From assembly GCA_026874595.1 (NCBI GenBank), contig CM049311.1:34513176-34577175 (forward strand): 64,000 bases of DNA, read 5' to 3'. Position numbers and translations under genes: made by a program. Below, piece after piece: positions 31,539 through 64,000 of this stretch (position 1 is the stretch's first letter; every line of letters starts with the position of its first letter). Source of the stretch: Sipunculus nudus (lineage: Eukaryota; Annelida; Sipuncula; Golfingiida; Sipunculidae). The notes under the pieces were generated by a model. It did not search any database, was not told the DNA's origin, and saw nothing but the letters and a program-made list of their open reading frames with translations.

Positions 31539-33331
31539 ACTAGACGACCATAGGTCGAACGCTTGCCGGAAATCGGAAGTGAAACACAGACGGTAGGGCA
31601 GAACATATTGTCGGTTTTCTATTAATAGAATGACTCTCAGGGACATTGCTGAGAATATGTGGCCCGTAGAATGACAAATGAACAGGCAAGCAGACAAAGC
31701 TGACAACAAAAGACGAACAGACAGACATACTGACTTTGTGAGACAAGATTGACACCAGATGACATAACCTGGTGATTGAGAAGATTCAAAGGAAGAAAAT
31801 GAGTTATAATTTATGTAATTTAGATTTATAGTTTTGGAGGTATGGGGAATTAATGATATACTTGGGAGGCTCGACTGTAGCGCCTTCTAGCAGACATATT
31901 CCGAAGACGACAAATGCGTTTCGTATTATTAGTGTATGACATCAGATGTCCCAGTTTCAAAAGGATTCCGTCAAAGCTGTGGCCTGTCGAATGCTATATG
32001 TAAGGCGTAAGAACCAGCAAGCAGGCACTTTGAGGGTAACGGACAAACAGATTGACACACTGACAAAGTGACAGAAGATTGAAACCATATGCCTTAATCA
32101 GGTTATGGAGAAGACTCAAAGGAAGAAAATAAGCTATAGCTTATGTAACTGAGGCTTTTGGTGTAGAGATATGGCCAATACAATGGTATGTGTGGGAGGG
32201 TCGTGTGCAGCGCCCACTAGTGGCCATATCAGGAAAATGAAAAATTAATTTCTAGAAATTAGTGTAAGACATAAGATGTAATAGTTTCAAAAGGATTCCG
32301 TCAAAACTGTGGTCTATAGAATGCTATATGTGAGACGCAAGAGCCAACAAGCAGGCGAATTTGAGGACAACTGACAAACAGACGAAAACACTGACAAAGT
32401 GACTCAAGATTGAGTCCAGATAACTACTCAAGGTTATGGAGAAGACTCAAAGGAAGAAAAAAAGCTACAGTCTATGTAACTAAGGTTTATAGTTTTGGAG
32501 ATATTGCCAAAGCATGATATGTTGGGAGAGGTTCGAGTTCAGCGCCCCCTAGCGGTCATATCCGGAAAATGAAAAATTGGTTTCGAGATATTAGTGTAAG
32601 ACTTAAGATGTAATAGTTTCAAAAGGATTCTTTCAAAACTGTGGCCTGTAGAATGCTATATGTGAGACGCAAGAGCAAGCAGGCGAATTTGAGGACAACT
32701 GACAAACAGACGGACACAATGACAAAGTGACACAACATTGAGACCAGATGACATTATCAGTTTATGGAGAAGACTCAGAGAGAAAAAATAAGCTATAGTT
32801 TATGTAATTGAGGCTTTGGTTTTTATAGATATGGCCAATGTAATGATATCTGTGTGAGGGTCGTGTGCAGCGCCCCCTAGCAGCCATATTCAAAAAATGA
32901 AAGAACAATTTCGAGATAATAGTGTAGGACTTATGATATGTCAGTTTCAAAAAGATTCCTGCAATAATGTGGCCTTTGGCGCAAGATGAATGAAATCTCG
33001 AAATATCTCTATTCACGAGATATTTTACGAGATACTGCAAGACTTGTAATAAAATCTTGTAGTACTAGTTGAATGCTACCTGATGCAAAAAACTAGATCA
33101 CTCTAGCTTTAAAACTGACAAAGTGAGAAAAATAAGATCCCTTATTTTCGAATATCATGACTTTTCCCCAAAAAATTGTAACCATGGTTACGGCAAATTT
33201 GAGTCAGCTACACACCAGATGACAGGCCTTGGAATGACGATTAAAATGAGCTATTGTGGAAGTAGATACGACTAATAGTCACAAAGATATGAAGAAAAAA
33301 ACGTTTTGAGAAGTTTTGACGACCTTGACCT

Positions 33332-33344
33332 TGACCTTTGACCT
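33332..33344 (-). promoter_or_regulatory. DR1 nuclear-receptor-like element
   Basis: The minus strand reads AGGTCAAAGGTCA, a perfect direct repeat with one-base spacing, followed by further AAGGTCA half-sites. The same slot recurs in each array module, often with one change. It may simply be repeat sequence. Confidence 0.4.
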
Positions 33345-33452
33345 ATTTTAACCAAAAACAATAGGGCACCTAGAAATTATGTTTTCAAACATCCCTGTAA
33401 GTTTGAAGGTTATTGTGGCAAAATTGTGGCCAGGAGAGTGGTGACAAACAAA

Positions 33453-36163
33453 CTAGACGACCAGAGGTCGAGCGCTTGCCGGAAGTTGAAATGACAGACA
33501 GACGGACAGACAGAACATATTGTGGGTTTTCTATTATTTGAATGACCCTCAGCGTTTGCTGAGAAGTTGTGGCCTGTAAAATGACATATCAGACAAAGCA
33601 ACGAGGAAGCAGACAAAGCTGACAACAAAAGACGAACAGACAGACATACTGACACATCTGTGATAACAGATTACAGACAAAAGCGCCGAATGTGAAGAAG
33701 AGCAAAATTAGCGATAGTTTATGTAGGTAAGGTTTATAATTTTGGAGAGATAGCCAAAACATGATATGTTGGGGAGGTGAAAGTGCAGCGCCCCCTAGTG
33801 GCTATATCCGGAAAATGAAAAATCTGTTTTGAGATATTAGTGTAACACATAAGATGTACCAGTTTTAAAAGGATTCCTGAAAAAAAAAAACTGGCCTGTA
33901 GAATGCTATATATGAGACGCAAGAACCAGCAAGTAGGCGGATTTTAGGACAACTGACAAACAGACACACTGACAAAGTGACACAAGATTGAGACCAGATG
34001 ACATTACTAGGTCATGGAGAAGACTCAGGGAAAGAAAATAAGCCATAGTCTCTGTAATTGTGCCTTTGGGTTTTAGAGATATGGTCAATATAATGATATG
34101 TGTGTGAGGGTCATGTGCAGCGCCACCTAGCGGCCATATCCGGAAAATAGAAAAAATGTTTTGAGATATTTCTGTAAAACATAATATGCATCAGTTTTCA
34201 AATGCTTCTTTAAAAACTGTGGCCTGTAGAATGCTATATGTGAGACGCAAGAACCAGCAAGCAGGCAAATTTGAGGACAAGTGACAAACAGACGGACACA
34301 CTGACAAAGTGACACAAGATTGAGACCAGATGACATTATCAGTTTATGGAGAAGACTCAGAGGAAAAAAATAAGCTATAGTTTATGTAAATGAGGCTTTG
34401 GGTTTTAGAGATATGGCCAATGTAATGATATGTGTGTGAGGGTCGTTTGAAGCGCCCCCTAGGTGCCATATTCAAAAAATGAAAAAACAATTTCGAGATA
34501 CTAGTGTAGGACTTATGATGTGTCAGTTTCAAAAAGATTCCTGCAATAATGTGGCCTTTGGCGCAAGATGAATGAAATCTCGAAATATCTCTATTCACGA
34601 GATATTTTACGAGATACTGCAAGACTTTAATAAAATCTTGTAGTACTTGTTAAATGCTACCTGATGCAAAAAACTAGATCACTCTAGCTTTAAAACTGAC
34701 AAAGTTAGAAAAATAAGACCCCTTTATTTCGAATATCCTGACTTTTCCCCCAAAATTTGTAACCATGGTTACGGCAAATTTGAGTCAGCTACACACCAGA
34801 TGACAGGCCTTGGAACGACGATTAAAATGAGCTATTGTTGAAGTAGATACGACTGAAAGTCACACAGATATGGAGAAAAAACCGTTTTAAGAAGTTTTGA
34901 CGAACTTGACCTTGACCTTTCACCTATATTAACCAAAAACAATAGGGCACCTAGAAATTATGTTTTCGAACATCCCTGTAAGTTTCAAGGTTATTGTTGC
35001 AAAATTGTGGCCAGGAGAGTGGTGACAAACAAACAAGAACCAGCAAGAAGGCGAATTTGAGGACAACTGACAAACAGACGGACACACTGACAAAGTGACT
35101 CAAGATTGAGTCCAGATGACTACTCCAGATTATGGAGACGACTCAAAGGAAGAAAAAAGCTACAGTCTATGTAACTGAGGTTTATAGTTTTGGAGATATT
35201 GCCAAAGCATGATATGTTGGGAGAGGTTCGAGTTCAGCGCCCCCTAGCGGCCATATTCGGAAAATGAAAAATTGGTTTCGAGATATTATTGTAAGACTTA
35301 AGATGTAATAGTTTCAAAAGGATTCTTTCAAAACTGTGGCCTGTAGAATGCTATATGTGAGACGCAAGAGCAAGCAGGCGAATTTGAGGACAACTGACAA
35401 ACAGACGGACACAATGACAAAGTGACACAACATTGAGACCAGATGACATTATCAGTTTATGGAGAAGACTCAGAGGGAAAAAATAAGCTATAGTTTATGT
35501 AATTGAGGCTTTGGGTTTTAGAGATATGGCCAATGTAATGATATCTGTGTGAGGGTCGTGTGCAGCGCCCCCTAGGAGCCATATTCAAAAAATAAAAAAT
35601 TATTTCGAGATACTAGTGTAAGACTTATAATATGTCAGTTTCAAAAAGATTCCTGCAATAATGTGGCCTTTGGCGCAAGATGAATGAAATCTCGAAATAT
35701 CTCTATTCACGAGATATTTTACGAGATACTGCAAGACTTTAATAAAATCTTGTAGTACTAGTTGAATGCTACCTGATGCAAAAAACTAGATCACTCTAGC
35801 TTTAAAACTGACAAAGTTAGAAAAATAAGATCCCTTATTTTCGAATATCATGACTTTTCCCCAAAAAATTGTAACCATGGTTACGGCAAATTTGAGTCAG
35901 CTACACACCAGATGACAGGCCTTGGAATGACGATTAAAATGAGCTATTGTTGAAGTAGATACGACTAATATTCACAAAGATATGAAGAAAAAAACGTTTT
36001 GAGAAGTTTTGACGACCTTGACCTTGACCTTTGACCTATTTTAACCAAAAACAATAGGGCACCTAGAAATTATGTTTTCGAACATCCCTGTAAGTTTGAA
36101 GGTTATTGTGGCAAAATTGTGGCCAGGAGAGTGGTGACAAACAAACTAGACGACCATAGGTCG
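33453..36163. repeat. 2.7-kb block, duplicated at 57254-60026
   Basis: Both copies begin CTAGACGACCAGAGGTCGA and run through the same order of monomers with scattered substitutions. The second copy is ~60 bp longer because of a local duplication near 58690-58765. Confidence 0.85.
33787..33801 (-). promoter_or_regulatory. CTCF-core-like box (exact consensus match)
   Basis: The minus strand reads CCACTAGGGGGCGCT, which satisfies every position of the commonly used CTCF core CCASYAGRKGGCRSY (consensus from memory). It occupies the same slot in the monomer as about 40 related boxes. Binding is untested. Confidence 0.5.
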
Positions 36164-37927
36164 AACGCTTGCCGGAATTCGGAAGTGAAACACAGACGGA
36201 CAGACAGAACATATTGTCGGTTTTCTATTAATGGAATGACTCTCAGGGACATTGCTGAGAATATGTGGCCCGTAGAATGACATATGAGACAAAAGAACAG
36301 GCAAGCAGACAAAGCTGACAACAAAAGACGAACAGACAGACATACTGACTTTGTGAGACAAGATTGACACCAGATGACATAAGCTAGTTATTGAGAAGAT
36401 TCAAAGGAAGAAAATGAGTTATAATTTATGTAATTTAGATTTATAGTTTACGAGGTATGGCGAATTAATGATATACTTGGGAGGCTCGACTGTAGCGCCC
36501 TCTAGCAGACATATTCCGAAGACGACAAATGCGTTTCGTATTATTAGTGTATGACATGAGATGTCTCAGTTTCAAAAGGATTCCAAGCTGTGGCCTGTAG
36601 AATGCTATGTGTAAGGCGTAAGAACCAGCGAGCAGGCGACTTTGAGGATAATGGACAAACAGATGGACACACTGACAAAGTGACAGAAGATTGAAACCAG
36701 ATGCCTTAATCAGGTTATGGAGAAGACTCAAAGGAAGAAAATAAGCTATAGCTTATGTAACTGAGGCTTTGGGTGTAGAGATATGGCCAATACAATGGTA
36801 TGTGTGTGAGTCATGTGCAGCGCCCACTAGTGGCCATATCCGGAAAAATGAAAAATTTATTTCTAGATATTAGTGTAAGACATAAGATGTAATAGTTTCA
36901 AAAGGATTCCGTCAAAACTATGGCCTACAGAATGCTATATGTGAGACGCAAGAGCCAACAAGAAGGCGAATTTGAGGACAACTGACAAACAGACGAAAAC
37001 ACTGACAAAGTGACTCAAAATTGAGTCCAGAGGACTTCTCCAGGTTATGGAGAAGACTCAAAGGAAGAAAAAAGCTACAGTTTATGTAACTGAGGTTTAT
37101 AGTTTTGGAGATATTGCCAAAGCATGATATGTTGGGAGAGGTTCGAGTTCAGCGCCCCCTAGCGGCCATATCCGGAAAATGAAAAATTGGTTTCTAGATA
37201 TTAGTGTAAGACTTAAGATGTAATAGTTTCAAAAGGATTCTTTCAAAACTGTGGCCTGTAGAATGCTATATGTGAAACGCAAGAGCAAGCAGGCGAATTT
37301 GAGGACAACTGACAAACAGACAGACACACTGACAAAGTGTCACAAAATTGTGACCAGATGACTACACTAGGTTATGGAGAAGACTCAGAGGAAGAAAATA
37401 AGCTATAGTTTATGTAATTGAGGCTTATAATTTTGGAGATATGGCCAAAATATGATATGTTCGGGAGGTTCGCATCCAGCGCCCCCTAGCGGCCCCATTC
37501 AAAAAGTGAAAAATCGATTTCGAGATATTAGTGTAGGACTTATAATATGTCAGTTTCAAAAAGATTCCTGCAATAATGTGGCCTTTGGCGCAAGATGAAT
37601 GAAATCTCGAAATATCTCTATTCACGAGATATTTTACGAGATACTGCAAGACTTGTAATAAAATCTTATAGAACTAGTTGTGCTACCTGATGCAAAAAAT
37701 TAGATCACTCTAGCTTTAAAACTGACAAAGTTAGAAAAATAAGACCCCTTATTTTCGAATATTATGACTTTTCCCCCAAAACTTGTAACCATGGTTACGG
37801 CAAATTTGAGTCAGCTACACACCAGATGACAGGCCTTGGAATGACGATTAAAATGAGCTATTGTTGAAGTAGATACGGCTAATAGTCACAAAGATATGAA
37901 GAAAAAATCGTTTTGGGAAGATTTGAC
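36011..37927. repeat. ~1.9-kb higher-order unit, copy 1
   Basis: The unit from one GACCTTGACCTTGACC box to the next. It holds four ~330-bp monomers and closely resembles 37928-39834. Monomers at the same position match better between units than neighbours within a unit, which is the hallmark of a higher-order repeat. Confidence 0.85.
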
Positions 37928-39834
37928 GACCTTGACCTTGACCTTTCACCTATTTTAACCAAAAACAATAGAGCACCTAGAAATTATGTTTCTCATCATC
38001 CCTGTAAGTTTCAAGGTTATTGTGGCAAAATTGTGGCCAGGAGAGTGGTGACAAACAAACTAGACGACCATAGGTCGAACGCTTGCCGGAATTCGGAAGT
38101 GAAACACAGACGGACAGAAAGAACATATTGTCGGTTTTCTATTAATGGAATGACTCTCAGGGACATTGCTGAGAATATGTGGCCCGTAGAATGACATATG
38201 AGACAAAAGAACAGGCAAGCAGACAAAGCTGACAACAAAAGACAAACATACAGACATACTGACTTTGTGAGACAAGATTGACACCAGATGACATAAGCTA
38301 GTTATTGAGAAGATTCAAAGGAAGAAAATGAGTTATAATTTATGTAATTTAGATTTATAGTTTACGAGGTATGGCGAATTAATTATATACTTGGGAGGCT
38401 CGACTGTAGCGCCCTCTAGCAGACATATTCCGAAGACGACAAATGCGTTTCGTATTATTAGTGTATAACATCAGATGTCTCAGTTTCAAAAGGATTCCGT
38501 CAAAGTTGTGGCCTGTAGAATGCTATATGTAAGGCGTAAGAACCAGGAAGCAGGCGACTTTGAGGATAACGGACAAACAGATGGACACACTGACAAAGTG
38601 ACAGAAGATTGAAACCAGATGCCTTAATCAGGTTATGGAGAAGACTCAAAGGAAGAAAATAAGCTATAGCTTATGTAACTGAGGCTTTGGGTGTAGAGAT
38701 ATGGCCAATACAATGGTATGTGTGTTAGAGTCATGTACAGCGCCCACTAGTGGCCATATCCGGAAAATGAAAAATTCATTTCTAGATATTAGTGTAAGAC
38801 ATAAGATGTAATAGTTTCAAAAGGATTCCGTCAAAACTGTGGCCTACAGAATGCTATATGTGAGACGCAAGAACCAACAAGCAGGCGAATTTGAGGACAA
38901 CTGACAAACAGACGAAAACACTGACAAAGTGACCCAAAATTGAGTCCAGATGACTTCTCCAGGTTATGGAGAAGACTCAAAGGAAGAAAAAAGCTACAGT
39001 TTATGTAACTGAGGTTTATAGTTTTGGAGATATTGCCAAAGCATGATATGTTGGGAGAGGTTCGAGTTCAGCGCCCCCTAGCGGCCATATCCGGAAAATG
39101 AAAAATTGGTTTCGAGATTTTCGTGTAAGACTTAAGATGTAATAGTTTCAAAAGGATTCTTTCAAAACTGTGGCCTGTAGAATGCTATATGTGAGACGCA
39201 AGAGCAAGCAGGCGAATTTGAGGACAACTGACAAACAGACGGACACAATGACAAAGTGACACAAGATTGAGACCAGATGACATTATCAGTTTATGGAGAA
39301 GAATCATAGGGAAAATAAGCTATAGTTTATGTAATTGAGGCCTATAATTTTGGAGATATTTCCAAAACATGATATGTTGGAGAGGTTTGCACCCAGCGCC
39401 CCCTAGCGGCCGAATCAAAAAAATGAAAAATTGATTTCGAGATAATAGTGTAGGACTTAAAATATGCCAGTTTCAAAAAGATTCCTGCAAAACTGTGGCC
39501 TCCAGGGCAAGATTACTGAAATCTCGAAATATCTCGTTTGACGAGATATTATACGAGATATTGCGAGACTCTTAATAGAATCTTGAAGTACTAGGTGAAT
39601 GCTACCTGAAGCAAAAAACTAGACCTCTGTAGCTTTAAAACTGACAAATTTAGAAAAATATCAGCACTTTTCCCCAAAAATGCGTTACCATGGTTACCGA
39701 GTCAGTTATTGAGTCAGCTACACACCAATAGACAGGCCTTGGAATGACGATTAAAATGAGCTATTGTTGAAGTAGCTACGACTATTAGTCACAAAGATAT
39801 GAAGAAAAAAACGTTTTGAGAAGTTTTGACGACC
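37928..39834. repeat. ~1.9-kb higher-order unit, copy 2
   Basis: Repeat of the preceding unit with small differences. Its last spacer has a better-preserved AATATCTCG/CGAGATATT hairpin near 39525-39550. Confidence 0.85.
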
Positions 39835-39949
39835 TTGACCTTTGACCTATTTTAACCAAAAACAATAGGGCATCTAGAAATTATGTTTTCGAACATCCCT
39901 GTAAGTTTCAAGGTTATTGTGGCAAAATTGTGGCCAGGAGAGTGGTGAC

Positions 39950-40045
39950 AAACAAACAGACAGACAAACAGACATACGCAACTGAGTAATATGCTTGCCG
40001 AAATCTTTGATTCCGGCAAGCAACAAACAGACAGACAGACAGACA
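39950..40045. repeat. (CAGA)n with GCTTGCCG hairpin
   Basis: GACATACGCAACTGAG, then a stem GCTTGCCGAAATC/GATTCCGGCAAGC with loop TTT, then (CAGA)n. It closes array I and is the same minisatellite as at 52440-52710 and 57060-57253. Confidence 0.75.
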
Positions 40046-40110
40046 GACTAGACGACCTGAGGTCGAACGCTTGCCGGAAGTTACCGGAAATAAGACAGCG
40101 AAATAGATGG

Positions 40111-49208: not shown

Positions 49209-50482
49209 CAAAATTCAAAGGTTTTACCCCAAAAATAGAGAAATCTGGCAATAGCGCACTTTGGCACCTATGCGCAAAAACAAGCCCATGGACCCTAGTT
49301 TAAGGTGCTGTGATGGAAATGGCCCAATGTTTAATAGTTCTGGCGGTAGAGCACCAAAACAAATTTTCATGTTTTTTCATCTGCAACGCCCCCTGGCGGC
49401 CATTTCCAAAATCTGAAAAACCCGTTTCGAGATATTCTTCTGTTACATAAAATATCTCAGAGTCAGTAAAATTGCTGCAAATTTGAAAAATATCACGAAA
49501 TTCCATGATTTCTCCCCAAAATTGCGTAACCATGGTAACAGCGAAATGAGGCAATTTTGCAGTGTTGGAAGTGGCCTTGCAGTGGCAAATAAAACGGGCT
49601 ACAGATTAGGTGCCTACGGCTATTTTTGACGAAGGTATGAAGAAAAAACCGTTTTTGAGCTTTTGGGTGACCCTGACCTTGACCCTTGACCGATCATGAC
49701 CAAAAACAATAGGCTCCGAGAAGAACCGATTATACACTCTATCTATAAGTTTCAGGACGATTGGTGCAAAATTGTGGCCTGTAGAGCGGGGACATACAGA
49801 CAAACAAACAAACGGAACTGATCAACATACTTGTCGAAATCTCTGATTCCGGCAAGCAATAAATTATAACGCGACAGAAATGGCAAACCGGCCCGCAAAG
49901 AGTGCCTGTGGTCACTTATCTTATACGGCGAACGCTATAATTTTTGCAGTCACGGGAAAGCGTGTCTGTCTTTCATACTAAAACGCGTGCATGCATGCGT
50001 GATGGCATATGTATTTGTGCATGCGGGTTTTAATTTTTACAAAGTTGCTAAAATTTGTGGGGACCGTGTATGATTAAACAAAAGAGGCCATGGGCAGAAA
50101 GGCCATGAAACGCCAATTCATATGGTGTACAGTTTATGTACCTAAAATGTGTAGTTTTGGAGATATGGTTAAACAATGATAGTAGGTACGGGGTTGCAGT
50201 GCAGCGCCCCCTAGCGGTAATTTTCCAAAAACTGAACAATTGCTTTCGAGATATTAATGTATGACGTAACATGTATCAGTTTCAAAAGGATGCCTGCATA
50301 TCTGTGGCCTATAGGGCATGTCACCGTGAAATCGCGAAATCTCATTCGACGAGAAACGGTGCGAGATTTTGCAAGATTTTTGGTTGGATCACCGAGAACT
50401 CACCAAGGGCTACAAGATGCAAAAATTTTGACCTCTCTAGCATAAAAACTGACAGAGTTAGAAGCTGAAAACTGCATATTTT
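49209..50482. repeat. 1274-bp tandem unit, copy 2
   Basis: Nearly identical to copy 3 over their shared length. Copies 2 and 3 share variants (AAAAACAAGCCC and GGCGGTAGAGC) that differ from copy 1, so they are the most recent duplicates. Confidence 0.93.
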
Positions 50483-51133
50483 CAAAATTCAAAGGTTTTA
50501 CCCCAAAAATAGAGAAATCTGGCAATAGCGCACTTTGGCACCTATGCGCAAAAACAAGCCCATGGACCCTAGTTTAAGGTGCTGTGATGGAAATGGCCCA
50601 ATGTTTAATAGTTCTGGCGGTAGAGCACCAAAACAAATTTTCATGTTTTTTCATCTGCAACGCCCCCTGGCGGCCATTTCCAAAATCTGAAAAACCCGTT
50701 TCGAGATATTCTTCTGTTACATAAAATATCTCAGAGTCAGTAAAATTGCTGCAAATTTGAAAAATATCACGAAATTCCATGATTTCTCCCCAAAATTGCG
50801 TAACCATGGTAACAGCGAAATGAGGCAATTTTGCAGTGTTGGAAGTGGCCTTGCAGTGGCAAATAAAACGGGCTACAGATTAGGTGCCTACGGCTATTTT
50901 TGACGAAGGTATGAAGAAAAAACCGTTTTTGAGCTTTTGGGTGACCCTGACCTTGACCCTTGACCGATCATGACCAAAAACAATAGGCTCCGAGAAGAAC
51001 CGATTATACACTCTATCTATAAGTTTCAGGACGATTGGTGCAAAATTGTGGCCTGTAGAGCGGGGACATACAGACAAACAAACAAACGGAACTGATCAAC
51101 ATACTTGTCGAAATCTCTGATTCCGGCAAGCAA
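50483..51133. repeat. 1274-bp tandem unit, copy 3 (first half)
   Basis: Stops at GATTCCGGCAAGCAA, where sequence switches to the hairpin minisatellite. Confidence 0.9.
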
Positions 51134-51248
51134 CAAACATACGCGGGTGATCAACATGCTTGCGAAAATCGAAGATTTCCGGCAAGCAACAAACAGACAT
51201 ACGCAACTGACCAATATGCTTGCGGAAATCGAAGATTTCCGGCAAGCA
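51134..51248. repeat. GCTTGCGG hairpin minisatellite, CAGA-poor version
   Basis: Two hairpins (GCTTGCGxAAATCGAAGATT then TCCGGCAAGC) separated by CAACAAACAGACATACGCAA. It forms the junction between the 1274-bp and 1460-bp blocks. Confidence 0.75.
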
Positions 51249-52441
51249 ATAAAGTATGGACTATGCCTCCAACATGTATGATCATAGATGGGGCCCGGAG
51301 AGGCCGTCACGGACCGCTGCACACGCCGGCCGCCCACCGTAAGGACCCTGCCGCCACTTGCGGCGACGGCAAGTGTCTTCGTGGTATGGCGAAAAACGGC
51401 GCGAGATTTGACGAGACTAACAATGTGACCCCTGAATGTGACTGCGGGTGTCAGCCGCTATCCAGCGCTGCAAACCATGTGTCTGTAGCGTGAAAAATGA
51501 CAGAATTATAGGCATTTCTTTGAATGGTCACGTGTTCTCGTTTCACGAGAAACGGTGCGAGATATGACGAGACTTGCGATTGAACGGCTTAGAACTAGAG
51601 GGATGCTGTCTAACGCCAAAAACCAGACCTTTCTATCGCAAATATCAACAGAGATAGAATCTGGAAAACTCCGAATTTTCAGATTGTCAAGTTTTACCCC
51701 AAAATTTGGTAACCATGGTAACGGCAGCACAAAGCAACAGGTGTGAAGAGATAAGCCAATGTTCCTAGTTTCAGATACGACCAAAAAAAATGGTGTCACG
51801 TTTAATATTTTTTGAGATATTGCAGAAAAATGACATGTTACAGTGTTTCATGTACCACGCCCCCTGGTGGCTATTTCCAAAAAATAAAAAACTGATTTCG
51901 AGATATTTATAAATAACACAAAATATATCAATTTCAAAGCCATTGTTAAAAAAATGCAACCTGTAGGTCATATTTAATGAAATCTCGAAGACTCTCGTTT
52001 GACGAGAAATGGTGCGAGATTTGGAGAGACTTTCAGTTTTATCATGTCAAGCTGCCTATAAGGTACATAATGACCAAAACCAGACGTCTGTAGCTTAAAA
52101 ATTGACAAAGTTACAAAAAATGGTCGTGTTATTTCCAATTTCCATGATTTTTGCCCAAAAAATGTAACCATGGTAACGGCAAATTTAAGTAAGCTACATG
52201 TCAAAAGAAAGGCCAGGTGATGACGAAAAAAATGAACTATTGCAGAAGTGGATAAGCCTATTTATGGCGAAGTTATAGTGCAAAATCGTTAACCATACCT
52301 GTCGTGACCTTGACCCTTGACCTTGGAGCAATGTTGACCAAAAACAATAGGGCACCTAGAAATTACGTTTTCGAACATCCCTGTAAGTTTCAAGGTTATT
52401 GTGGCAAAATTGTGGCCAGGAGAGTGGTGACAAACAAACAA

Positions 52442-52480
<39 letters not shown>

Positions 52481-52533
52481 TACGCAACTGACCAATATGC
52501 TTGCGGAAATCGAAGATTTCCGGCAAGCAACAA

Positions 52534-52576
<43 letters not shown>

Positions 52577-52628
52577 TACGCAACTGACCAATATGCTTGC
52601 CGAAATCTTTGATTCCGGCAAGCAACAA

Positions 52629-52659
<31 letters not shown>

Positions 52660-52708
52660 TACGCAACTGACCAATATGCTTGCGGAAATCGAAGATTTCC
52701 GGCAAGCA
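51249..52708. repeat. 1460-bp block, copy 1
   Basis: Begins ATAAAGTATGGACT, passes through the GC-rich cassette, TCTCGTTTCACGAGAAA hairpin, TTGGTAACCATGGTAAC, a CTCF-like ACGCCCCCTGGTGGC box and TGACCTTGACCCTTGACC, and ends in (CAGA)n hairpins. It repeats at 52709. Confidence 0.9.
52439..52708. repeat. (CAGA)n plus hairpin minisatellite, three units
   Basis: Hairpins at 52499-52527, 52595-52623 and 52678-52707 alternate with (CAGA)n and GACATACGCAACTGACCAAT. Stems are 13-14 bp with a 3-nt loop (GAA or TTT) and one mismatch or bulge. Confidence 0.85.
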
Positions 52709-53899
52709 ATAAAGTTGTGACTGTGCCTCCAACATGTATGATAATAGATGGGGCCCGGAGAGGCCGTCACGGACCGCTGCACACGCCGGCCGCCCACCGT
52801 AAGGACCCTGCCGCCACTTGCGGCGACGGCGAGTGTCTTCGTGGTATGGCGAAAAACGGCGCGAGATTTGACGAGACTAACAATGTGACCCCTGAATGTG
52901 ACTGCGAGTGTCAGCCGCTATCCAGCGCTGCAAACCATGTGTCTGTAGCGTGAAAAATGACAGAATTATAGGCATTTCTTTGAATGGTCACGTGTTCTCG
53001 TTTCACGAGAAACGGTGCGAGATATGACGAGACTTGCGATTGAACGGCTTAGAACTAGAGGGATGCTGTCTAACGCCAAAAACCAGACCTTTCTATCGCA
53101 AATATCAACAGAGATAGAAGCTGGAAAACTCCGAATTTTCAGATTGTCAAGTTTTACCCCAAAATTTGGTAACCATGGTAACAGCAGCACAAAGCAACAT
53201 GTGCGAAGAGATAAGCCAATGTTCCTAGTTTCAGATACGACCAAAAAAAATGGTGTCACGTTTAATATTTTTTGAGATATTGCAGAAAAATGACATGTTA
53301 CAGTGTTTCATGTACCACGCCCCCTGGTGGCTATTTCCAAAAAATGAAAAACTGATTTCGAGATATTTATAAATAACACAAAATATATCAATTTCAAAGC
53401 CATTGTTAAAAAAATGCAACCTGTAGGTCATATTTAATGAAATCTCGAAGACTCTCGTTTGACGAGAAATGGTGCGAGATTTGGCGAGACTTTCAGTTTT
53501 ATCATGTCAAGCTGCCTATAAGGTACATAATGACCAAAACCAGACGTCTGTAGCTTAAAAATTGACAAAGTTACAAAAAATGGTCGTGTTATTTCCAATT
53601 TCCATGATTTTTGCCCAAAAAATGTAACCATGGTAACGGCAATTTTAAGTAAGCTACATGTCAAAAGAAAGGCCAGGTGATGACGAAATAAATGAGCTAT
53701 TGCAGAAGTGGATAAGCCTATTTATGGCGAAGTTATAGTGCAAAAACCGTTAACCATACCTGTCGTGACCTTGACCCTTGACCTTGGAGCAATGTTGACC
53801 AAAAACAATAGGGCACCTAGAAATTACGTTTTCGAACATCCCTGTAAGTTTCAAGGTTATTGTGGCAAAATTGTGGCCATGAGAGTGGTGACAAACAAA
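52709..53899. repeat. 1460-bp block, copy 2 (without terminal minisatellite)
   Basis: Matches copy 1 to GTGGTGACAAACAAAC, then switches to the TAGACGACCAGAGGTCGAAC module instead of (CAGA)n. Confidence 0.9.
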
Positions 53900-55110: not shown

Positions 55111-55874
55111 ATAATTTGTTTCGAGATATAACTGTAAGACATAAGATTTAATAGTTTAAAAAAGATTCTTTCAAAACTGTGGCCTGTAGAATTCTATTAG
55201 TGAGACGAAAGAACAAAGAAGCAGGCGAATTTGAGGACAACTGACAAACAAACAGACATACTGACAAAGGGACACAAGATGAAGACAAGATGACTTAACC
55301 AGGTTATGGGGAAGACTCAGAGCAAGAAAAAAAAGGTATGGTTTATTAAATTGAGGTTTCTAGTTTTGGAGATATGGCCAAATAATGATATATTGGGGAT
55401 GTTCGACTGCAGCGCCCTCTAGTGGACATATCCTGAAGACGACATGTGCGTTTCGTGATGTTAGTGAATGGCATGAGATGTAATCGTTTCAAAAGGATTC
55501 CTCCGAATATCTGGCTTGTTGATTGCTATATGTGAGATGCAAGAACCAGCAAGTAGGCGAATTTGAAGATAACTGACAAACAGACAGACATACTGAAAAA
55601 AGTAACACAAGATGTACACCAGATGACGTTACCATATTTTGCAGAAGGCCAAGAGAAAGAAAATAAGTTACTGTTTGTGTAACATAGGTTTACTCTTACG
55701 GAAATATGTTTGGATGTTTGATTTGTTTGGATGTGTCTAGTGCAACGCCCCCTAGCAGCCATATCCGGAAAATGAAACATAAGTTTTGAGATATTAGTGT
55801 AAAACATAAGATGAAGGAACAAACATACGCGGGTGAACAACATACTTGCGAAAATCGATGATTTCCGGCAAGCA

Positions 55875-57068
55875 ATAAAGTATGGACTGTGCCTCCAACA
55901 TGTATGATGATAGACAGGGCCCGGAGAGGCCGTCACGCACCGCTGCACACGCCGGCCGCCCCCGTAAGGACCCTGCCGCCACTTGCGGCGACGGCGAGTG
56001 TCTTCGTGATATGGCGAAAAACGGCGCGAGATTTGACGAGACTAACAATGTGACCCCTGAATGTGACTGCGAGTGTCAGCCGCTATCCAGCGCTGCAAAC
56101 CATGTGTCTGTAGCGTGAAAAATGACAGAATTATAGGCATTTCTTTGAATGGTCACGTGTTCTCGTTTCACGAGAAACGGTGCGAGATATGACGAGACTT
56201 GCGATTGAACGGCTTAGAACTAGAGGGATGCTGTCTAACGCCAAAGACCAGACCTTTCTATCGCAAATATCAACAGAGATAGAAGCTGGAAAACTCCGAA
56301 TTTTCAGATTGTCAAGTTTTACCCCAAAATTTGGTAACCATGGTAACGGCAGCACAAAGCAACATGTGCGAAGAGATAAGCCAATGTTCCTAGTTTCAGA
56401 TACGACCAAAAAAAATGGTGTCACGTTTAATATTTTTGAGATATTGCAGAAAAATGACATGTTACAGTGTTTCATGTACCACGCCCCCTGGTGGCTATTT
56501 CCAAAAAATGAAAAACTGATTTCGAGATATTTATAAATAACACAAAATATATCAATTTCAAAGCCATTGTTAAAAAAAAATGCAACCTGTAGGTCATATT
56601 TAATGAAATCTCGAAGACTCTCGTTTGACGAGAAATGGTGCGAGATTTGGCGAGACTTTCAGTTTTATCATGTCAAGCTGCCTATAAGGTACATAATGAC
56701 CAAAACCAGACGTCTGTAGCTTAAAAATTGTCAAAGTTACAAAAAATGGTCGTGTTATTTCCAATTTCCATGATTTTTGCCCAAAAAATGTAACCATGGT
56801 AACGGCAAATTTAAGTAAGCTACATGTCAAAAGAAAGGCCAGGTGATGACGAAAAAAATGAGCTATTGCAGAAGTGGATAAGCCTATTTATGGCGAAGTT
56901 ATAGTGCAAAAACCGTTAACCATACCTGTCGTGACCTTGACCCTTGACCTTGGAGCAATGTTGACCAAAAACAATAGGGCACCTAGAAATTACGTTTTCG
57001 AACATCCCTGTAAGTTTCAAGGTTATTGTGGCAAAATTGTGGCCAGGAGAGTGGTGACAAACAAACAA

Positions 57069-57119
<51 letters not shown>

Positions 57120-57172
57120 TACGCAACTGACCAATATGCTTGCGGAAATCGAAGATTTCCGGCAAGCAACAA

Positions 57173-57203
<31 letters not shown>

Positions 57204-57253
57204 TACGCAACTGACCAATATGCTTGCGGAAATCGAAGATTTCCGGCAAGCAA
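55875..57253. repeat. 1460-bp block, copy 3
   Basis: Matches copies 1 and 2, with its own (CAGA)n hairpin tail (57060-57253, two hairpins). It is followed directly by the 2.7-kb block copy. Confidence 0.9.
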
Positions 57254-60026
57254 CTAGACGACCAGAGGTCGAGTGCTTGCCGGAAGTTGAAATGACAGAC
57301 AGACGGACAGACAGAACATATTGTGGGTTTTCTATTATTTGAATGACCCTCAGCGTTTGCTGAGATGTTGTGGCCTGTAAAATGACATATCAGACAAAGC
57401 AACGAAGAAGCAGACAGAGCTGACAACAAAAGACGAACAGACAGACATACTGACACATCTGTGATAACAGATTACAGACAAAAGCGCCGAAGGTGAAGAA
57501 GAGCAAAATTAGCGATAGTTTATATAGGTAAGGTTTATAATTTTGGAGAGATAGCCAAAACATGATATGTTGGGGAGGTGAAAGTGCAGCGCCCCCTAGT
57601 GGCTATATCCGGAAAATGAAAAATCTGTTTTGAGATATTAGTGTAACACATAAGATGTACCAGTTTTAAAAGGATTCCTGAAAAAAAACCTGTGGCCTGT
57701 AGAATGCTATATATGAGACGCAAGAACCAGCAAGTAGGCGGATTTGAGGACAACTGACAAACAGACACACTGACAAAGTGACACAAGATTGAGACCAGAT
57801 GACATTACTAGGTCATGGAGAAGACTCAGGGAAAGAAAATAAGCCATAGTTTCTGTAATTGTGCCTTTGGGTTTTAGAGATATGGTCAATATATAATATA
57901 TGTGTGAGGGTCATGTGCAGCGCCACCTAGCGGCCATATCCGGAAAATAGAAAAAATGTTTTGAGATATTTCTGTAAAACATATTATGCATCAGTTTTCA
58001 AATGCTTCTTTAAAAACTGTGGCCTGTAGAATGCTATATGTGAGACACAAGAACCAGCAAGCAGGCAAATTTGAGGACAACTGACAAACAGACGGACACA
58101 CTGACAAAGTGACACAAGATTGAGACCAGATGACATTATCAGTTTATGGAGAAGACTCAGAGGAAAAAAATAAGCTATAGTTTATGTAAATGAGGCTTTG
58201 GGTTTTAGAGATATGGCCAATGTAATGATATGTGTGTGAGGGTCGTTTGCAGCGCCCCCTAGCAGCCATATTCAAAAAATGAAAAAACAATTTCGAGATA
58301 CTAGTGTAGGACTTATGATATGTCAGTTTCAAAAAGATTCCTGCAATAATGTGGCCTTTGGCGCAAGATGAATGAAATCTCGAAATATCTCTATTCACGG
58401 GATATTTTACGAGATACTGCAAGACTTGTAATAAAATCTTGTAGTACTAGTTAAATGCTACCTGATGCGAAAAACTAGATCACTCTAGCTTTAAAACTGA
58501 CAAAGTTAGAAAAATAAGACCCCTTATTTTCGAATATCCTGAATTTTCCCCCAAAATTTGTAACCATGATTACGGCAAATTTGAGTCAGCTACACACCAG
58601 ATGACAGGCCTTGGAACGACGATTAAAATGAGCTATTGTTGAAGTAGATACGACTGAAAGTCACACAGATATGGAGAAAAAACTGTTTTAAGAAGTTTTG
58701 ACGACCTTGACCTTAATAGTCACAAAGATATGAAGAAAAAATCGTTTTGGGAAGATTTGACGACCTTGACCTTGACCTTTCACCTATATTAACCAAAAAC
58801 AATAGGGCACCTAGAAATTTTCTTTTTCATCATCCCTGTAAGTTTCAAGGTTATTGTGGCAAAATTGTGGCCAGGAGTGTGGTGACAAACAAACAAGAAC
58901 CAGCAAGAAGGCGAATTTGAGGACAACTGACAAACAGACGAAAACACTGACAAAGTGACTCAAGATTGAGTCCAGATGACTACTCCAGATTATGGAGACG
59001 ACTCAAAGGAAGAAAAAAGCTACAGTCTATGTAACTGAGGTTTATAGTTTTGGAGATATTGCCAAAGCATGATATGTTGGGAGAGGTTCGAGTTCAGCGC
59101 CCCCAAGCGGCCATATCCGGAAAATGAAAAATTGGTTTCGAGATATTAGTGTAAGACTTAAGATGTAATAGTTTCAAAAGGATTCTTTCAAAACCGTGGC
59201 CTGTAGAATGCTATATGTGAGACGCAAGAGCAAGCAGGCGAATTTGAGGACAACTGACAAACAGACGGACACAATGACAAAGTGACACAACATTGAGACC
59301 AGATGACATTATCAGTTTATGGAGAAGACATAGAGGGAAAAAATAAGCTATAGTTTATGTAATTGAGGCTTTGGGTTTTAGAGATATGGCCAATATAATG
59401 ATATCTGTGTGAGGGTCGTGTGCAGCGCCCCCTAGGAGCCATATTCAAAAAATGAAAAAACAATTTCGAGATACTAGTGTAGGACTTATGATATGTCAGT
59501 TTCAAAAAGATTCCTGCAATAATGTGGCCTTTGGCGCAAGATGAATGAAATCTCGAAATATCTCTATTCACGAGATATTTTACGAGATACTGCAAGACTT
59601 GTTATAAAATCTTGTAGTACTAGTTGAATGCTACCTGATGCAAAAAACTCGATCACTCTAGCTTTAAAACTGACAAAGTTAGAAAAATAAGATCCCTTAT
59701 TTTCGAATATCATGACTTTTCCCCAAAAATTTGTAACCATGGTTACGGCAAATTTGAGTCAGCTACACACCAGATGACAGGCCTTGGAATGACGATTAAA
59801 ATGAGCTATTGTTGAAGTAGATACGACTAATAGTCACAAAGATATGAAGAAAAAAACGTTTTGAGAAGTTTTGACGACCTTGACCTTGACCTTTAACCTA
59901 TTTTAACCAAAAACAATAGGGCACCTAAAAATTATGTTTTCGAACATCCCTGTAAGTTTCAAGGTTATTGTGGCAAAATTGTGGCCAGGAGAGTGGTGAC
60001 AAACAAACTAGACGACCATAGGTCGA
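57254..60026. repeat. 2.7-kb block copy of 33453-36163
   Basis: Same module order as in array I. A 60-odd-bp local duplication around GACGACCTTGACCTT near 58690-58765 lengthens it. Confidence 0.85.
57588..57602 (-). promoter_or_regulatory. CTCF-core-like box (exact consensus match)
   Basis: Identical to the box at 33787 and lies in the duplicated 2.7-kb block. Neighbouring monomers carry one- or two-mismatch versions. Confidence 0.5.
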
Positions 60027-62041
60027 GAGCTTGCCGGACTTAAATGACAGACAGATGGACAAACAGGACAAACTGACGGTTTTCTATCAATTGAATGACT
60101 TTTAAAGTGATTGCTTGAACGTTTGGCCTGTTGAACGACATATATCACATAAAAGAACATGAAATCAGACATAGCTCAAAACAGACAAATATACTGACAC
60201 ACCTGAGATAACAGACTACAAGTGAAGGTAGAGTTTATAATGTCGGAGATATGGCCAAAAAATGATATGGTGTGGAGGCTCTACCGCAGCATCCCCTAGC
60301 GGCCATAATCCGAAATTAAAAAATTTCTTTTGAGATATTATTGTAAGAAATGTTCCAAAATGTATATATTATTGTAAGAGATGTTTCAATTCCAAAAGGA
60401 TTCCCTCAAAACTGTGGCCTGAAGATTGCTAACTGTAAGACGCAAGATCCAGCAATCAGGCGAAAATGAGGATCACTGACAAACAGACAGACATACTGAA
60501 AAACTGTGGCCTGAAGATTGCTAACTGTAAAACGCAAGATCCAGCAAGCAGGTGAAATAGAGGATCACTGACAAACAGACAGACATACTGAAAAAGTGAC
60601 ACAAGAATAAGACCAGATGACTAACTCAGATTATGGAGAAGATTCAAAGGAAGACAATAAGTCATAGTGTTTGTAATTGAAGTTTATAGTTTTGTAGATA
60701 TGGCAAAGAAATATATATAGGGGAGAGGCGAGTGCAACGCCCCCTATTGGCAATATCCAGAAAATGAATAATCTGTTTCGAGATATTACTGTAAGATGTA
60801 AGATGTAATAGTTTAACAAGTGACCCATGGGTCATGACGCTCAGCTGCCAAGCATGACCTGCCACATCATGGGCTGAGATTCACAACTTCCAGTCACATT
60901 TTGAAGAATCAATTTGCCAATATGTTGAAATTTTCTACGACAACAGAAATATACATCACCTATGTCTGGTTAAAACACAGTGACTTGATGGTCTAAGGAA
61001 AAATGAATGATTGTTAAGCTATCAGTAACTATTCCCATAGCTTGCTTGATACCTGTCAGTCTCAAAAGAAACACCAAAAAGGGCAAATATAAGATCAAAA
61101 TATATAGCAAAAATCAAGGAAATCCATGCAAGAATTATTGAGAAACGGGTGCTTATAAATATGAAGTTTGAATCAAATTGTGTGATGCATAGATATGGCA
61201 TATGTGAAAGACTGAAGGTTTGGGTTGAACAGTTTCACTTGCAAAAAGTTCACAACCATTTAGAATAATTAAGTAGTGTGTCCTTGACCTTTGACCTTTT
61301 GAACTCGACATCGATAGGCTTCTTTCCCTATTGGTAGGTAAGCCATATATGACAAATGGAAGGTATAGATTGAAAAGTTTCCTGAAAATGACTCCACACA
61401 AAAAGTGGGTGCAGTGAACTTCACCTTTGACCTCAAATTCAACAGTTCTTTTCCCCTGTTGGCAGAGAAGCGATATCAGTGCTGGGAAGTTTGGAATGAA
61501 ATGTCTAGCTTGAAATGTTTTCACAACGTTTTAAAAAAATTGGATCCTGTGACCCTGATCTTTGATCTTGTGACCTAAAAATCTATAGGATTCTTCTCCC
61601 TCTTAGTAGGTGAAATATATGTAAAAGTTCAAAGAATTGGGATGAAAGATTTGGCTTAAAATGCATCCACAGGCATTAAATAAAGGGACTCCTGTGACCT
61701 TGACCTTTGACCTGTTGACTTCAAAATAATGATGGTTCTTCCCCTGTTAGTAGATGAGCTGTATGTGAAAGATGGAAGGTTTTGGATGAAAATTTTAGCT
61801 AAAAGAATTATTTCTGGGGGGTGCATACACACCCTGTAACTTCGAGAATATAGGTCAGTGACCTAATTTCAGGTTTGCAAGGAGATCATTTTAGAACCTC
61901 TAAGACTACATAGGGTTCATGACCCTAGCCCGTACAGTTACGATTTGTGCCATGCTAACAGACGGACGGCCGGTCAGCAGGATGGACAGATGGAAGGACG
62001 ACGGACAAAGACCCATCGCTATAGCCCAGCATGACTGAAAG
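60009..62041. repeat. 2.0-kb block copy of 45911-47934
   Basis: Follows the 2.7-kb block copy without a break. The join is inside the shared CTAGACGACCATAGGTCGA motif. Confidence 0.9.
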
Positions 62042-62775
62042 TCAGCTGAGCTAAAAATGATCCTTTCAAAACGGTGGCCTGTAGAATGCTATCAGTGAAA
62101 CTCAAGAACCAAAAAGCCTGCGAATTTGAGGACAACTGACAAACAAACAGACAAACTTACAAAGGGACACAAGATGGAGACAAGATGACTTAATCAGGTT
62201 ATGGAGAAGACTCAGAGGAAGAAAATAAGCTATAGTTTATGTAATTGAGGCTTATAATTTTGGAGATATGGCCAAATAATGATATACTGGATATGTTCGA
62301 CTGCAGCGCCCTCTAGTGGACATATCCTGAAGACGACAAATGCGTTTCGTGATATTAGTGTATGACATAAGATGTAATAGTTTCAAAAGGATTCGTCCAC
62401 ATATCTGACTTGTTGATTGCTATATCTAAAGTGCAAAAACTAGCAAGCAGGCGAATATGAGGATAAATGAAAAACAGACAGACATACTGACAAAGTGACA
62501 CTAGATGGAGACCAGGTGACTTGACCATGTTTTGAAGAAGACCAAGAGAAAGAAAATAAGCTATAGTTTGTGTAATATAGGTTTACTCTTACGGAAATAT
62601 GTTCAAAAACTGATTTTTTTAGAAGGGTCAAGTGCAGCGCCCCCTAGCAGCCATATCCGGAAAATGAAAAATAATTTTTGAGATATTAGTATAATACATA
62701 AGATGAAGGAACAAACATACACGGGTGAGCAACATGCTTTCGAAAATCGAAGATTTCCGTCAAGTAATACAAGTA

Positions 62776-62912
62776 ATAAAGTCTGGACTGTGCCTCCAAC
62801 ATGTATGATAATAGATAGGGCCCGGAAAGGCCGACACGCACCGCTGCACACGCCGGCTGCCCACCGTAAGGACCCTGTCGCCACTTGCGGCAATTGCACG
62901 TGTCTTCGTGAT
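62776..62912. repeat. Truncated 1460-bp block start
   Basis: Contains the GC-rich cassette, then switches near GTGATATGTATCAG into the 1274-bp unit. It shows a direct join between two block types that are separated elsewhere. Confidence 0.75.
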
Positions 62913-64000
62913 ATGTATCAGTTTCAAAAGGATGCCTGCATATCTGTGGCCTATAGGGCATGTCACCGTGAAATCGCGAAATCTCATTCGACGAGAAACG
63001 GTGCGAGATTTTGCAAGATTTTTGGTTGGATCACCGAGAACTCACCAAGGGCTACAAGATGCGAAAATTTTGACCTCTCTAGCATAAAAACTGACAGAGT
63101 TAGAAGCTGAAAACTGCATATTTTCAAAATTCAAAGGTTTTACCCCAAAAATAGAGAAATCTGGCAATAGCGCACTTTGGCACCTATGCGCAAAAATAAG
63201 CCCATGGACCCTAGTTTAAGGTGCTGTGATGGAAATGGCCCAATGTTTAATAGTTCTGGAGGTATAGCACCAAAACAAATTTTCATGTTTTTTCATCTGC
63301 AACGCCCCCTGGCGGCCATTTCCAAAATCTGAAAAACCCGTTTCGAGATATTCTTATGTTACATAAAATATCTCAGAATCAGTAAAATTGCTGCAAATTT
63401 GAAAAATATCACGAAATTCCATGATTTCTCCCCAAAATTGCGTAACCATGGTAACAGCGAAATGAGGCAATTTGGCAGTGTTGGAAGTGGCCATGCAGTG
63501 GCAAATAAAACGGGCTACAGATTAGGTGCCTACGGCTATTTTTGACGAAGGTATGAAGAAAAAACCGTTTTTGAGCTTTTTGGCGACCCTGACCTTGACC
63601 CTTGACCGATCATGACCAAAAACAATAGGCTCCGAGAAGAACCGATTATACACTCTATCTATAAGTTTCAGGACGATTGGTGCAAAATTGTGGCCTGTAG
63701 AGCGGGGACATACAGACAAACAAACAAACGGAACTGATCAACATACTTGTCGAAATCTCTGATTCCGGCAAGCAATAAACTATAACGCGACAGAAATGGC
63801 AAACCGGCCCGCAAAGAGTGCCTGTGGTCACTTATTTTATACGGCGAACGCTATAATTTTTGCAGTCACGGGAAAGCGTGTCTGTCTTTCATACTAAAAC
63901 GCGTGCATGCATGCGTGATGGCATATGTATTTGTGCATGCGGGTTTTAATTTTTACAAAGTTGCTAAAATTTGTGGGGACCGTGTATGATTAAACAAAAG
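62913..64000. repeat. 1274-bp tandem units, continuing past the window
   Basis: 62913-63125 matches the end of a 1274-bp unit and 63126-64000 the first 875 bp of the next. Its variants (AAAAATAAGCCC and GGAGGTATAGC) match copy 1, not copies 2 and 3. Confidence 0.9.

Follow-up and report, generated by a model that had tools for sequence, protein, structure and literature searches.

A Helentron-type transposon family in Sipunculus nudus with a predicted CTCF recognition site in its central tandem repeats

The repeat field between 31541 and 63775 of the window (the whole stretch analysed, 64,000 nucleotides of Sipunculus nudus contig CM049311.1) consists of clustered non-autonomous elements of the Helentron type (HINEs), whose central tandem repeats measure about 330 bp. 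A box some 17 bp long occupies a fixed place in these monomers, in a single orientation from 31.9 to 63.3 kb, and is described here as a putative transposon-borne CTCF recognition site that has probably been kept by selection on the element. The account that we consider likeliest, by a modest margin over even chances, is that of a HINE pile-up whose repeats mostly carry a near-optimal CTCF site, which CTCF would bind in vivo to the advantage of active copies. The parts of the field are as follows, in window coordinates.

31541..63775, minus strand: field of tandem and nested HINE copies, the element sense being the window minus strand (relative order of the palindrome, the subterminal repeats, the monomers, the core words and the GACA microsatellite; self-alignment)
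31654..32964, minus strand: central-repeat array of four units of about 330 bp, with intact boxes at 32209, 32541 and 32869 and a degraded one at 31877 (nhmmer, box search, matrix scan)
33564..34546, minus strand: central-repeat array of three units, boxes at 33787 (27.1 bits), 34119 and 34451 (nhmmer, box search, matrix scan)
35002..35658, minus strand: a pair of central repeats with boxes at 35236 and 35564 (nhmmer, box search)
36260..37573, minus strand: four central repeats, boxes at 36494, 36819, 37151 and 37478 (nhmmer, box search)
38174..39490, minus strand: four central repeats, boxes at 38408, 38739, 39070 and 39395 (nhmmer, box search)
45262..53399, minus strand: diverged modules, 19-bp boxes starting at 45311, 46189, 48110, 48928, 49384, 50202, 50658, 51855 and 53315, and a degraded one at 46636 (matrix scan, nhmmer)
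55174..63395, minus strand: further central repeats and modules, boxes at 55410, 55743, 56479, 57587, 57918, 58250, 59095, 59423, 60287, 60735, 62304, 62635 and 63300 (matrix scan, nhmmer)
32581..32593, minus strand: TTTCGAGATATTA, another conserved block, lying 40 bp from the start of the box
33178..33191, no strand assigned: palindrome GTAACCATGGTTAC of the element core, recurring across the field; we take it to resemble an RFX site
33327..33343, no strand assigned: GACCTTGACCTTTGACC of the element core, recurring across the field, presumably similar to nuclear-receptor half-sites
33455..33484, minus strand: example of the element 3' end, palindrome AGACGACC-AG-AGGTCG with subterminal repeat GCTTGCCGGAA; further 3' ends start at 31541, 36147, 38061, 40049, 45911, 53901, 57255 and 60009
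52499..52528, minus strand: example of the element 5' end, a hairpin formed by the subterminal repeat together with an inverted copy of it (GCTTGC ... TTCCGGCAAGC)
52449..52472, minus strand: GACA microsatellite (GTCY on the minus strand) adjoining the 5' end

A search of the window for AGCGCCCCCTAGCGGCC with up to three mismatches found 33 matches between 32209 and 63317, all on the plus strand, against 0.01 expected by chance (100 dinucleotide shuffles), which bears out the fixed place and common orientation put forward in the original prediction; the ten box coordinates that it gave are correct within 2 bp, and its two exact matches to the 15-bp core CCASYAGRKGGCRSY become four. That nearly every monomer has a box holds for most of them, with the exception of a full-length monomer (54016-54295) that has lost it and of the degraded boxes at 31877 and 46636, which score below 10 bits in a plain matrix scan. 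The diverged boxes lie in stretches of about 130-170 bp that can be aligned to the monomer profile, ruling out an independent origin of many of them; all were copied from one ancestral box, so that 40 boxes are not 40 independent events.

The likeness to CTCF sites was scored with counts taken as those of matrix MA0139.1, which underlie all bit scores given here. On these counts the core motif match in the boxes is well above background, scores reaching 27.1 of a maximum of 30.7 bits. Matches above 12 bits number 41 on the minus strand of the window (38 of them inside the field) and one on the plus strand, compared with a mean of 1.65 on both strands together in 20 Markov shuffles of the window; three plus-strand matches of 11-12 bits also lie inside the field. 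A plain scan puts 38 of 40 boxes above 10 bits, and the figure of 39 of 40 at 12.1 bits or more includes 46636, where the alignment passed over an insertion of 1 bp. When the best score of each of the 30 full-length monomers was compared with those of 450 shuffled monomers, 27 of the 30 had P<1e-5 and 16 exceeded the best shuffle (19.1 bits). Spot samples amounting to 48 kb showed a small excess, with 10 matches against 5.65 in Markov shuffles (maximum 10).

The monomers lie within elements having defined ends, which rules out a plain satellite. Both the window and three solitary whole copies elsewhere in the genome (L020, L024 and L025, with 4, 3 and 4 boxes) have inverted subterminal repeats about 11 bp long, GCTTGCCGGAA at one end and TTCCGGCAAGC at the opposite one. 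The solitary copies show the same internal order of parts as the field, and the CTAG at their 3' end is preceded by A-rich sequence, which is T-rich when read on the element strand. Both end features of HINEs are present, namely an inverted copy beside the 5' subterminal repeat, whose hairpin folds at -13.3 (40-nt stretch), and a palindrome at the 3' end (CGACC-NN-GGTCG), which folds weakly (-4.7). GACA runs and two to four monomers sit between the end modules, as expected for a HINE. The 11-12 bp subterminal inverted repeats with an inverted copy beside the 5' one, the GTCY microsatellite in the left flank, the satellite-like central tandem repeats, the 3' palindrome and the fixed orientation of arrays within the element are all shared with oyster Cg_HINE and Drosophila DINE-1, as these are described in PMC7492417 and PMC4067079. 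The central repeats of the oyster element are mostly 140-180 bp in the part of its description considered, whereas those described here are of about 330 bp and carry a CTCF-like box, and the term CTCF appears 0 times in the oyster paper. The Helitron domain PF14214 has 143 matches in the genome, of which seven lie in frames of more than 2,000 aa without a stop. A structured RNA in the monomer, such as a self-cleaving ribozyme, was rejected, Rfam giving no match in the field at the gathering threshold; the sole Rfam match at that threshold, a Vault RNA, lies beyond the field, at 18514.

The claim that the box is better conserved than its surroundings stands for its 12-bp core, AGCGCCCCCTAG, and fails for the raw 17-mer and for the last 5 bp as a group. 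Within the box only this core appears constrained: in five monomer sets, which overlap, it changes at 0.43, 0.65, 0.58, 0.51 and 0.41 times the context-matched rate. The 12-mer ranks 1/321 (the 17-mer 50/316) with 118 monomers, 30 from the window and 88 from outside loci, 20 in number, that had been chosen by the exact box; it ranks 5/321 after removal of the 29 exact-box copies outside the window (89 monomers) and 17/321 when the 59 non-window copies are taken by themselves. In loci selected through another word (47 monomers) the core ranks 58/291 raw and 37/291 when context-normalised, and 23/291 once the window monomers join them (77 monomers). The box was therefore rejected as the best-conserved word, a rank of 1 being obtained only with loci chosen by the exact box. 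Motif positions 7-18 are the 12 under constraint; positions 5 and 6 change often, even though position 5 is nearly invariant in the human matrix, and constraint across the whole 15-bp core was not found in the monomer sets of the window and other loci. The correlation of changes with matrix information was not significant (Spearman -0.44, P = 0.057). As to whether selection acted before or after insertion, core changes did not differ from those of other C/G columns between terminal and internal branches (Fisher P 0.10 to 1.0, five sets), the ratios in the box-independent set being 0.71 on terminal and 0.28 on internal branches.

A CTCF-like protein with 11 fingers is encoded in the genome, and its fingers 3, 4 and 5 equal those of human CTCF at helix positions -1, 2, 3 and 6; it matches the human finger region at 57% over 281 of 284 residues, and its closest solved relative is CTCF. 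By the finger triplets given in the available part of PMC8629902, the constrained 12 bp correspond to fingers 6-3 and the decaying positions 5-6 fall in the finger-7 triplet. Constraint thus stops where the finger-6 triplet stops, which argues against a rather unlikely alternative, although the best placed of those considered: that the box is a cis-element for another C2H2 protein or for the Helentron replication machinery and resembles a CTCF site through core overlap only. The confinement of constraint to the 12-bp core, with decay of the finger-7 part, can also be read in its favour, as can the 374 genome matches of the finger query, which indicate many C2H2 genes, and a second block, TTTCGAGATATT, which is as conserved as the box in the deep set, so that the box may be part of an element-internal signal. 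Against it, most of the 19 positions suit CTCF, and substitutions are biased to those that CTCF tolerates: 37 of them cost the matrix -2.10 on average, compared with -3.80 +- 0.44 in the null (0/10,000). Constraint is also indicated by a neutral simulation, which gave a mean of -4.1 +- 4.9 against 20.9 (0/400). Sites of EGR and Sp type presumably fit the box worse, as judged by eye. The CTCF motif is also common elsewhere in the genome: genome-wide, CCASYAGRKGGCRSY has 4,264 occurrences and its reversed control 41, a difference of about 100-fold; among the 100 CCA-type matches listed from the first 30 Mb of one contig, 16 appear to read exactly as the element's own variants.

It is improbable, more so than the action of another factor, that the box is carried along passively, as a CTCF-like word that arose by chance in the founding repeat and was kept by descent and homogenisation alone. 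All boxes are homologous, as this would predict, and the raw 17-mer is unremarkable, ranking 72/316 windows by changes and 42/316 by entropy among the 30 full-length window monomers, 152/316 and 186/316 in sets without exact-box copies outside the window, and 123/281 and 86/281 in the analysis built on loci selected through another word; constraint on the core is moreover weakest in the cleanest sample, chosen without the box. However, the 26.3-bit site of the consensus monomer has P = 2.9e-7 on an AT-rich background, which disfavours chance within one ancestral monomer, left possible by the original prediction; on a uniform background the value is 7.8e-9 per position and about 5e-6 per monomer. 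In the core, C/G columns change at about half the frequency of others (2.22 vs 4.08, P = 0.008; 3.0 vs 6.0, P = 7e-4), the core CpG has 2 + 2 changes against 5-14 per column in the monomer's other six CpGs, and homogenisation would not stop at 12 bp.

The exact box is present in 2,755 copies genome-wide, on both strands (1301 / 1454; reversed control 0), and full-length monomers were found in 19 of 20 loci picked by another repeat word. The boxes share one orientation because the element itself is polar, and its cause in the field is element polarity combined with insertion in tandem or nested form, rather than a designed boundary. A count of 97 of 97 in the same orientation is in part a product of the method, because the monomer profile includes the box, and the independent evidence is the order of element parts in solitary copies. 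That the cluster has been domesticated into a one-sided insulator or loop anchor is very unlikely and the least probable of the alternatives. It would fit the 38 of 38 field matches above 12 bits that face one way and the mouse Dxz4 tandem array, described as an orientation-dependent boundary (PMC6985041), but is opposed by the spread of the exact box over both strands genome-wide, by the same internal order in solitary copies, by the fragmented, locally duplicated and partly decayed state of the field, and by accounts, as far as their available text extends, of echinoderm boundaries without a CTCF motif orientation pattern and, in a review, of squid, where CTCF directionality was not identified. 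A dense one-sided cluster of insulators or loop anchors as a property of this locus, as originally proposed, is thus unsupported, the orientation being the polarity of a dispersed transposon, whereas the CTCF reading itself is strengthened by the near-optimal site, the CTCF-like protein with matching core fingers and the motif count.

If the transposon-borne site is kept through CTCF, the protein would bind the box in vivo and active element copies would be favoured through this binding, for example via open or unmethylated chromatin; the inserted sites would behave as ordinary CTCF sites, whether used by the host or not. A bolder and rather unlikely extension is that one rolling-circle family supplied strong CTCF-like sites in numbers comparable to all other sources (2,755 CCG-type vs 4,264 CCA-type), each insertion delivering a ready-made array of two to four same-facing sites; the loop map would then be largely transposon-written and polar at the element scale, and the site would be kept because CTCF occupancy holds chromatin open or unmethylated for transposition.

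Retroposons have been described as spreading CTCF sites in mammals. The present family resembles such transposons, mouse SINE B2 among them, in that a mobile element multiplies CTCF sites; those are retroposons with measured CTCF binding, whereas this is a rolling-circle DNA element with predicted sites. The ISX Helitron of Drosophila miranda likewise spreads binding sites of a chromatin complex (PMC4384637), but is described with a single MSL recognition motif in each element, with binding that is proven and with enrichment on one neo-X, in contrast to the arrays of predicted CTCF-like sites found here. The DXZ4 / Dxz4 macrosatellite is also a tandem array with one CTCF site per unit, X-linked, with 3-kb GC-rich units and proven binding, while the S. 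nudus element is a dispersed AT-rich transposon with 330-bp units and predicted sites; a macrosatellite of this kind, restricted to one or a few loci, was rejected, given the exact boxes and monomers dispersed over the genome. Among the titles and abstract openings covered, largely of papers outside subscription, none reported a Helitron or a molluscan satellite spreading CTCF sites. In the available text of squid, annelid and echinoderm work (PMC7854359 included) a directional function of CTCF is not established, and the matter is described as unsettled in spiralians and echinoderms. If CTCF binds here, the spreading of its sites would be shown for a rolling-circle DNA element, and thousands of natural, oriented and copy-numbered arrays would be at hand to test CTCF directionality outside vertebrates; in S. 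nudus, possible chromatin-boundary sites in their thousands may have been spread across the genome by a single transposon.

The ~330-bp monomers of the field carry the ~17-bp box at a fixed place. AGCGCCCCCTAGCGGCC has 33 matches at no more than three mismatches between 32209 and 63317, all of them on the plus strand (0.01 expected), which bears out the single orientation of the original prediction. TGGCCGCTAGGGGGCGCTG, its minus-strand reading with neighbouring bases, is near the consensus of the CTCF matrix (MA0139.1). At more than 12 bits this matrix finds 41 matches on the minus strand of the window (38 of them in the field) and one on the plus strand, and Markov shuffles of the window give a mean of 1.65. 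The proposed excess over shuffled monomers was recovered as well: the best site reaches P<1e-5 in 27 of 30 full-length monomers, and 16 of the 30 outscore the top of 450 shuffled monomers. Exact CCASYAGRKGGCRSY is present at all positions in four copies (33787, 55411, 57588 and 62305), not in the two counted originally.

Self-alignment and motif mapping resolve the field into repeated units, numerous truncated ones among them. On the plus strand, a full unit starts with a palindrome (AGACGACC-NN-AGGTCG), followed by GCTTGCCGGAA and two to four box-bearing 330-bp monomers, and then by GTAACCATGGTTAC, GACCTTGACCTTTGACC, AAAATTGTGGCC, a GACA microsatellite and, at its end, a hairpin with TTCCGGCAAGC. 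Read on the minus strand, this order is the HINE plan described for oyster Cg_HINE (PMC7492417) and DINE-1 (PMC4067079): a 5' subterminal inverted repeat with its inverted copy, a GTCY microsatellite, central tandem repeats, a 3' subterminal repeat and a 3' palindrome. Solitary whole elements with the same ends stand at three loci elsewhere in the genome (L020 and L025 with four boxes each, L024 with three), and the Helitron replication domain PF14214 has 143 genome matches, seven of them in stop-free frames of more than 2,000 aa. Judged by its anatomy, the family is a HINE. Since the units follow this plan and solitary copies exist elsewhere, the field is a dispersed non-autonomous Helentron that has piled up locally, and its boxes all face one way because they follow the element's own polarity. 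At 20 loci selected by the box, monomer matches hold 97 sites of at least 16.5 bits in one relative orientation and none in the other (seven lie outside), a result that is partly built in because the monomer profile includes the box. The full HINE core also bears the RFX-like GTAACCATGGTTAC and the nuclear-receptor-like GACCTTGACCTTTGACC at fixed places (33178 and 33327, recurring through the field), and several regulatory sites may be present in the element. Other features of the window are the following:

11467-13264 and 30016-30450: separate repeat family repeating the palindrome AGGTGGCGCCACC (18 matches at no more than two mismatches, both strands; 0.4 expected), resembling half of the insect-type CTCF motif
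14209-14460 and 18175-18426: 252-bp inverted repeat, 98.8% identity, arms separated by ~3.7 kb; they may be the termini of a DNA transposon
18514-18617: Vault RNA (RF00006), matched at 36.1 bits against a gathering score of 34
25536-27704, minus strand: 722-aa stop-to-stop frame whose architecture resembles a TRPV channel (ankyrin repeats plus an ion-transport match below threshold)
42314-44114, inside the HINE field: unrelated 365-bp tandem repeat, five copies, 90% matches, opposite GC skew
47934-51137: 1,274-bp head-to-tail units of ~99.8% identity, with more copies at 62907-64000 (~99%), a recent local amplification

The box had been described as better conserved than its surroundings, which holds for a 12-bp core (0.41-0.65 of the expected rate) and is not evident for the whole 17-mer, whose raw change count in the 30 full-length window monomers is unremarkable (rank 72/316). 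Among 17 representatives, including modules 65-72% alike, the core ranks 4/171 and the 17-mer 14/166; a second conserved block besides the core, TTTCGAGATATT (32581 and equivalent places, 40 bp from the box start), is the top conserved 12-mer of this deep set. For 40 boxes, on a tree built without the box, C/G columns show 2.07 changes in the box vs 4.49 in the flanks (P = 9e-5), 37 box substitutions cost the CTCF matrix less than when placed at random (-2.10 vs -3.80 ± 0.44, 0/10,000), and boxes simulated neutrally average -4.1 ± 4.9 vs 20.9 observed (0/400); how often a position changes does not correlate significantly with its matrix information (Spearman -0.44, P = 0.057). In 118 monomers (30 from the window and 88 from 20 loci picked by the exact box), the 12-mer ranks 1/321 and the 17-mer 50/316. 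When the 29 non-window copies with the exact box are dropped, the ranks are 5/321 and 152/316 (89 monomers) or, for the 59 non-window monomers alone, 17/321 and 186/316. With loci picked by another word, the 12-mer ranks 58/291 (47 monomers, 19/20 loci), and 23/291 with the window added (77 monomers), core C/G columns changing 2.22 vs 4.08 times (P = 0.008) and 3.0 vs 6.0 times (P = 7e-4), respectively. With columns corrected for their context class (CpG, CpA/TpG, remaining C/G, A/T), the core rate is 0.43 of expected in the window (rank 7/321), 0.65 in the box-independent set (37/291), 0.58 in both together (7/291), 0.51 in the window plus non-exact copies (1/321) and 0.41 in all 118 monomers (1/321). 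The three A/T columns of the core show a significant deficit in none of the five sets; put fairly, its C/G columns change about two-fold less than expected, and this effect weakens in the cleanest sample.

Constraint covers the 12 bp at motif positions 7-18, which are the triplets of fingers 6, 5, 4 and 3 in PMC8629902, where the finger-7 triplet NCA includes positions 5 and 6. These two positions change often, and position 4 is conserved (one change in 118 monomers). Of the two CpGs in the box, that of the core has changed 2 + 2 times and the second one 9 + 14 times; their positions correspond to the core cytosines 12 and 2 that PMC6222495 considers in connection with methylation. CpG is depleted to 0.66 observed/expected in the window and 0.70 in the field.

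A protein search gave one CTCF-like candidate, well ahead of the others, on contig C11 (67037659-67038510), within a 989-aa open frame, with 57% identity over 281/284 residues of the human finger region (runner-up 41%; 137 of 1,828 candidates scored). It has eleven C2H2 fingers, and its closest solved relative is CTCF. Fingers 3, 4 and 5 equal the human ones at helix positions -1, 2, 3 and 6, and fingers 6 and 7 differ. Many of the C2H2 matches listed for the CTCF finger query lie on contig C16, which suggests a local zinc-finger gene expansion. The constraint pattern fits a CTCF with unchanged fingers 3-5 and drifted fingers 6-7; another factor reading the core alone also fits.

Across 1,426,538,692 bases in 153 contigs, the exact 17-mer has 1301 + 1454 copies (reversed control 0) and a 19-mer from another part of the monomer 347 + 297; twelve 4-kb spot samples contained no monomer matches. 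The general motif CCASYAGRKGGCRSY occurs 2093 + 2171 times (reversed control 18 + 23), and 16 among the 100 places listed for it are the element's exact CCACTAG(A/G)GGGCGCT variants. In monomer-free DNA, matrix matches of at least 12.1 bits exceed column-permuted and Markov controls, unevenly: 10 vs 2.15 and 5.65 (max 10) in 48 kb of spot samples, 10 vs 0.88 and 0.85 in 31.7 kb of flanks, and 4 vs 0.77 and 0.55 in window 1-31000, where no site reaches 16.5 bits. From the C11 protein, the abundance of CCASYAGRKGGCRSY and this excess, a CTCF motif of vertebrate type appears to be in use in this genome.

Use of an individual array by the host as an insulator is possible, with no support here, and the one-sided insulator once envisaged at this locus finds none either, the box direction being that of a dispersed element. 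Chance within one ancestral monomer, also considered originally, is unlikely even allowing for ~1000 other noticeable motifs: all boxes are copies of a single box, not forty events, so the question concerns one 332-bp monomer, for which a 26.3-bit site has a chance of 2.9e-7 on an AT-rich background and, with a modest margin, ~5e-6 (7.8e-9 per position) on a uniform one.

The same-facing tandem sites recall DXZ4 (PMC3218863, PMC6985041), although the HINE is not a single-locus macrosatellite. In the annelid Dimorphilus, CTCF is the commonest open-chromatin motif, without clear directionality (PMC7854359). The literature search, within the text available to it, found no description of a CTCF-carrying Helitron or a CTCF-carrying molluscan satellite. 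Going by sequence, this Helentron family bears a near-optimal CTCF-like site in most of its central repeats, and the core of the site accumulates changes at about half the rate of matched columns, a constraint that does not differ significantly between terminal and internal branches. CTCF would bind the boxes, and copies with intact sites would have transposed more, perhaps because CTCF holds local DNA open or unmethylated. The HINE would then act like the mammalian transposons that spread CTCF sites and like the ISX Helitron of Drosophila, which spread MSL sites (PMC4384637).
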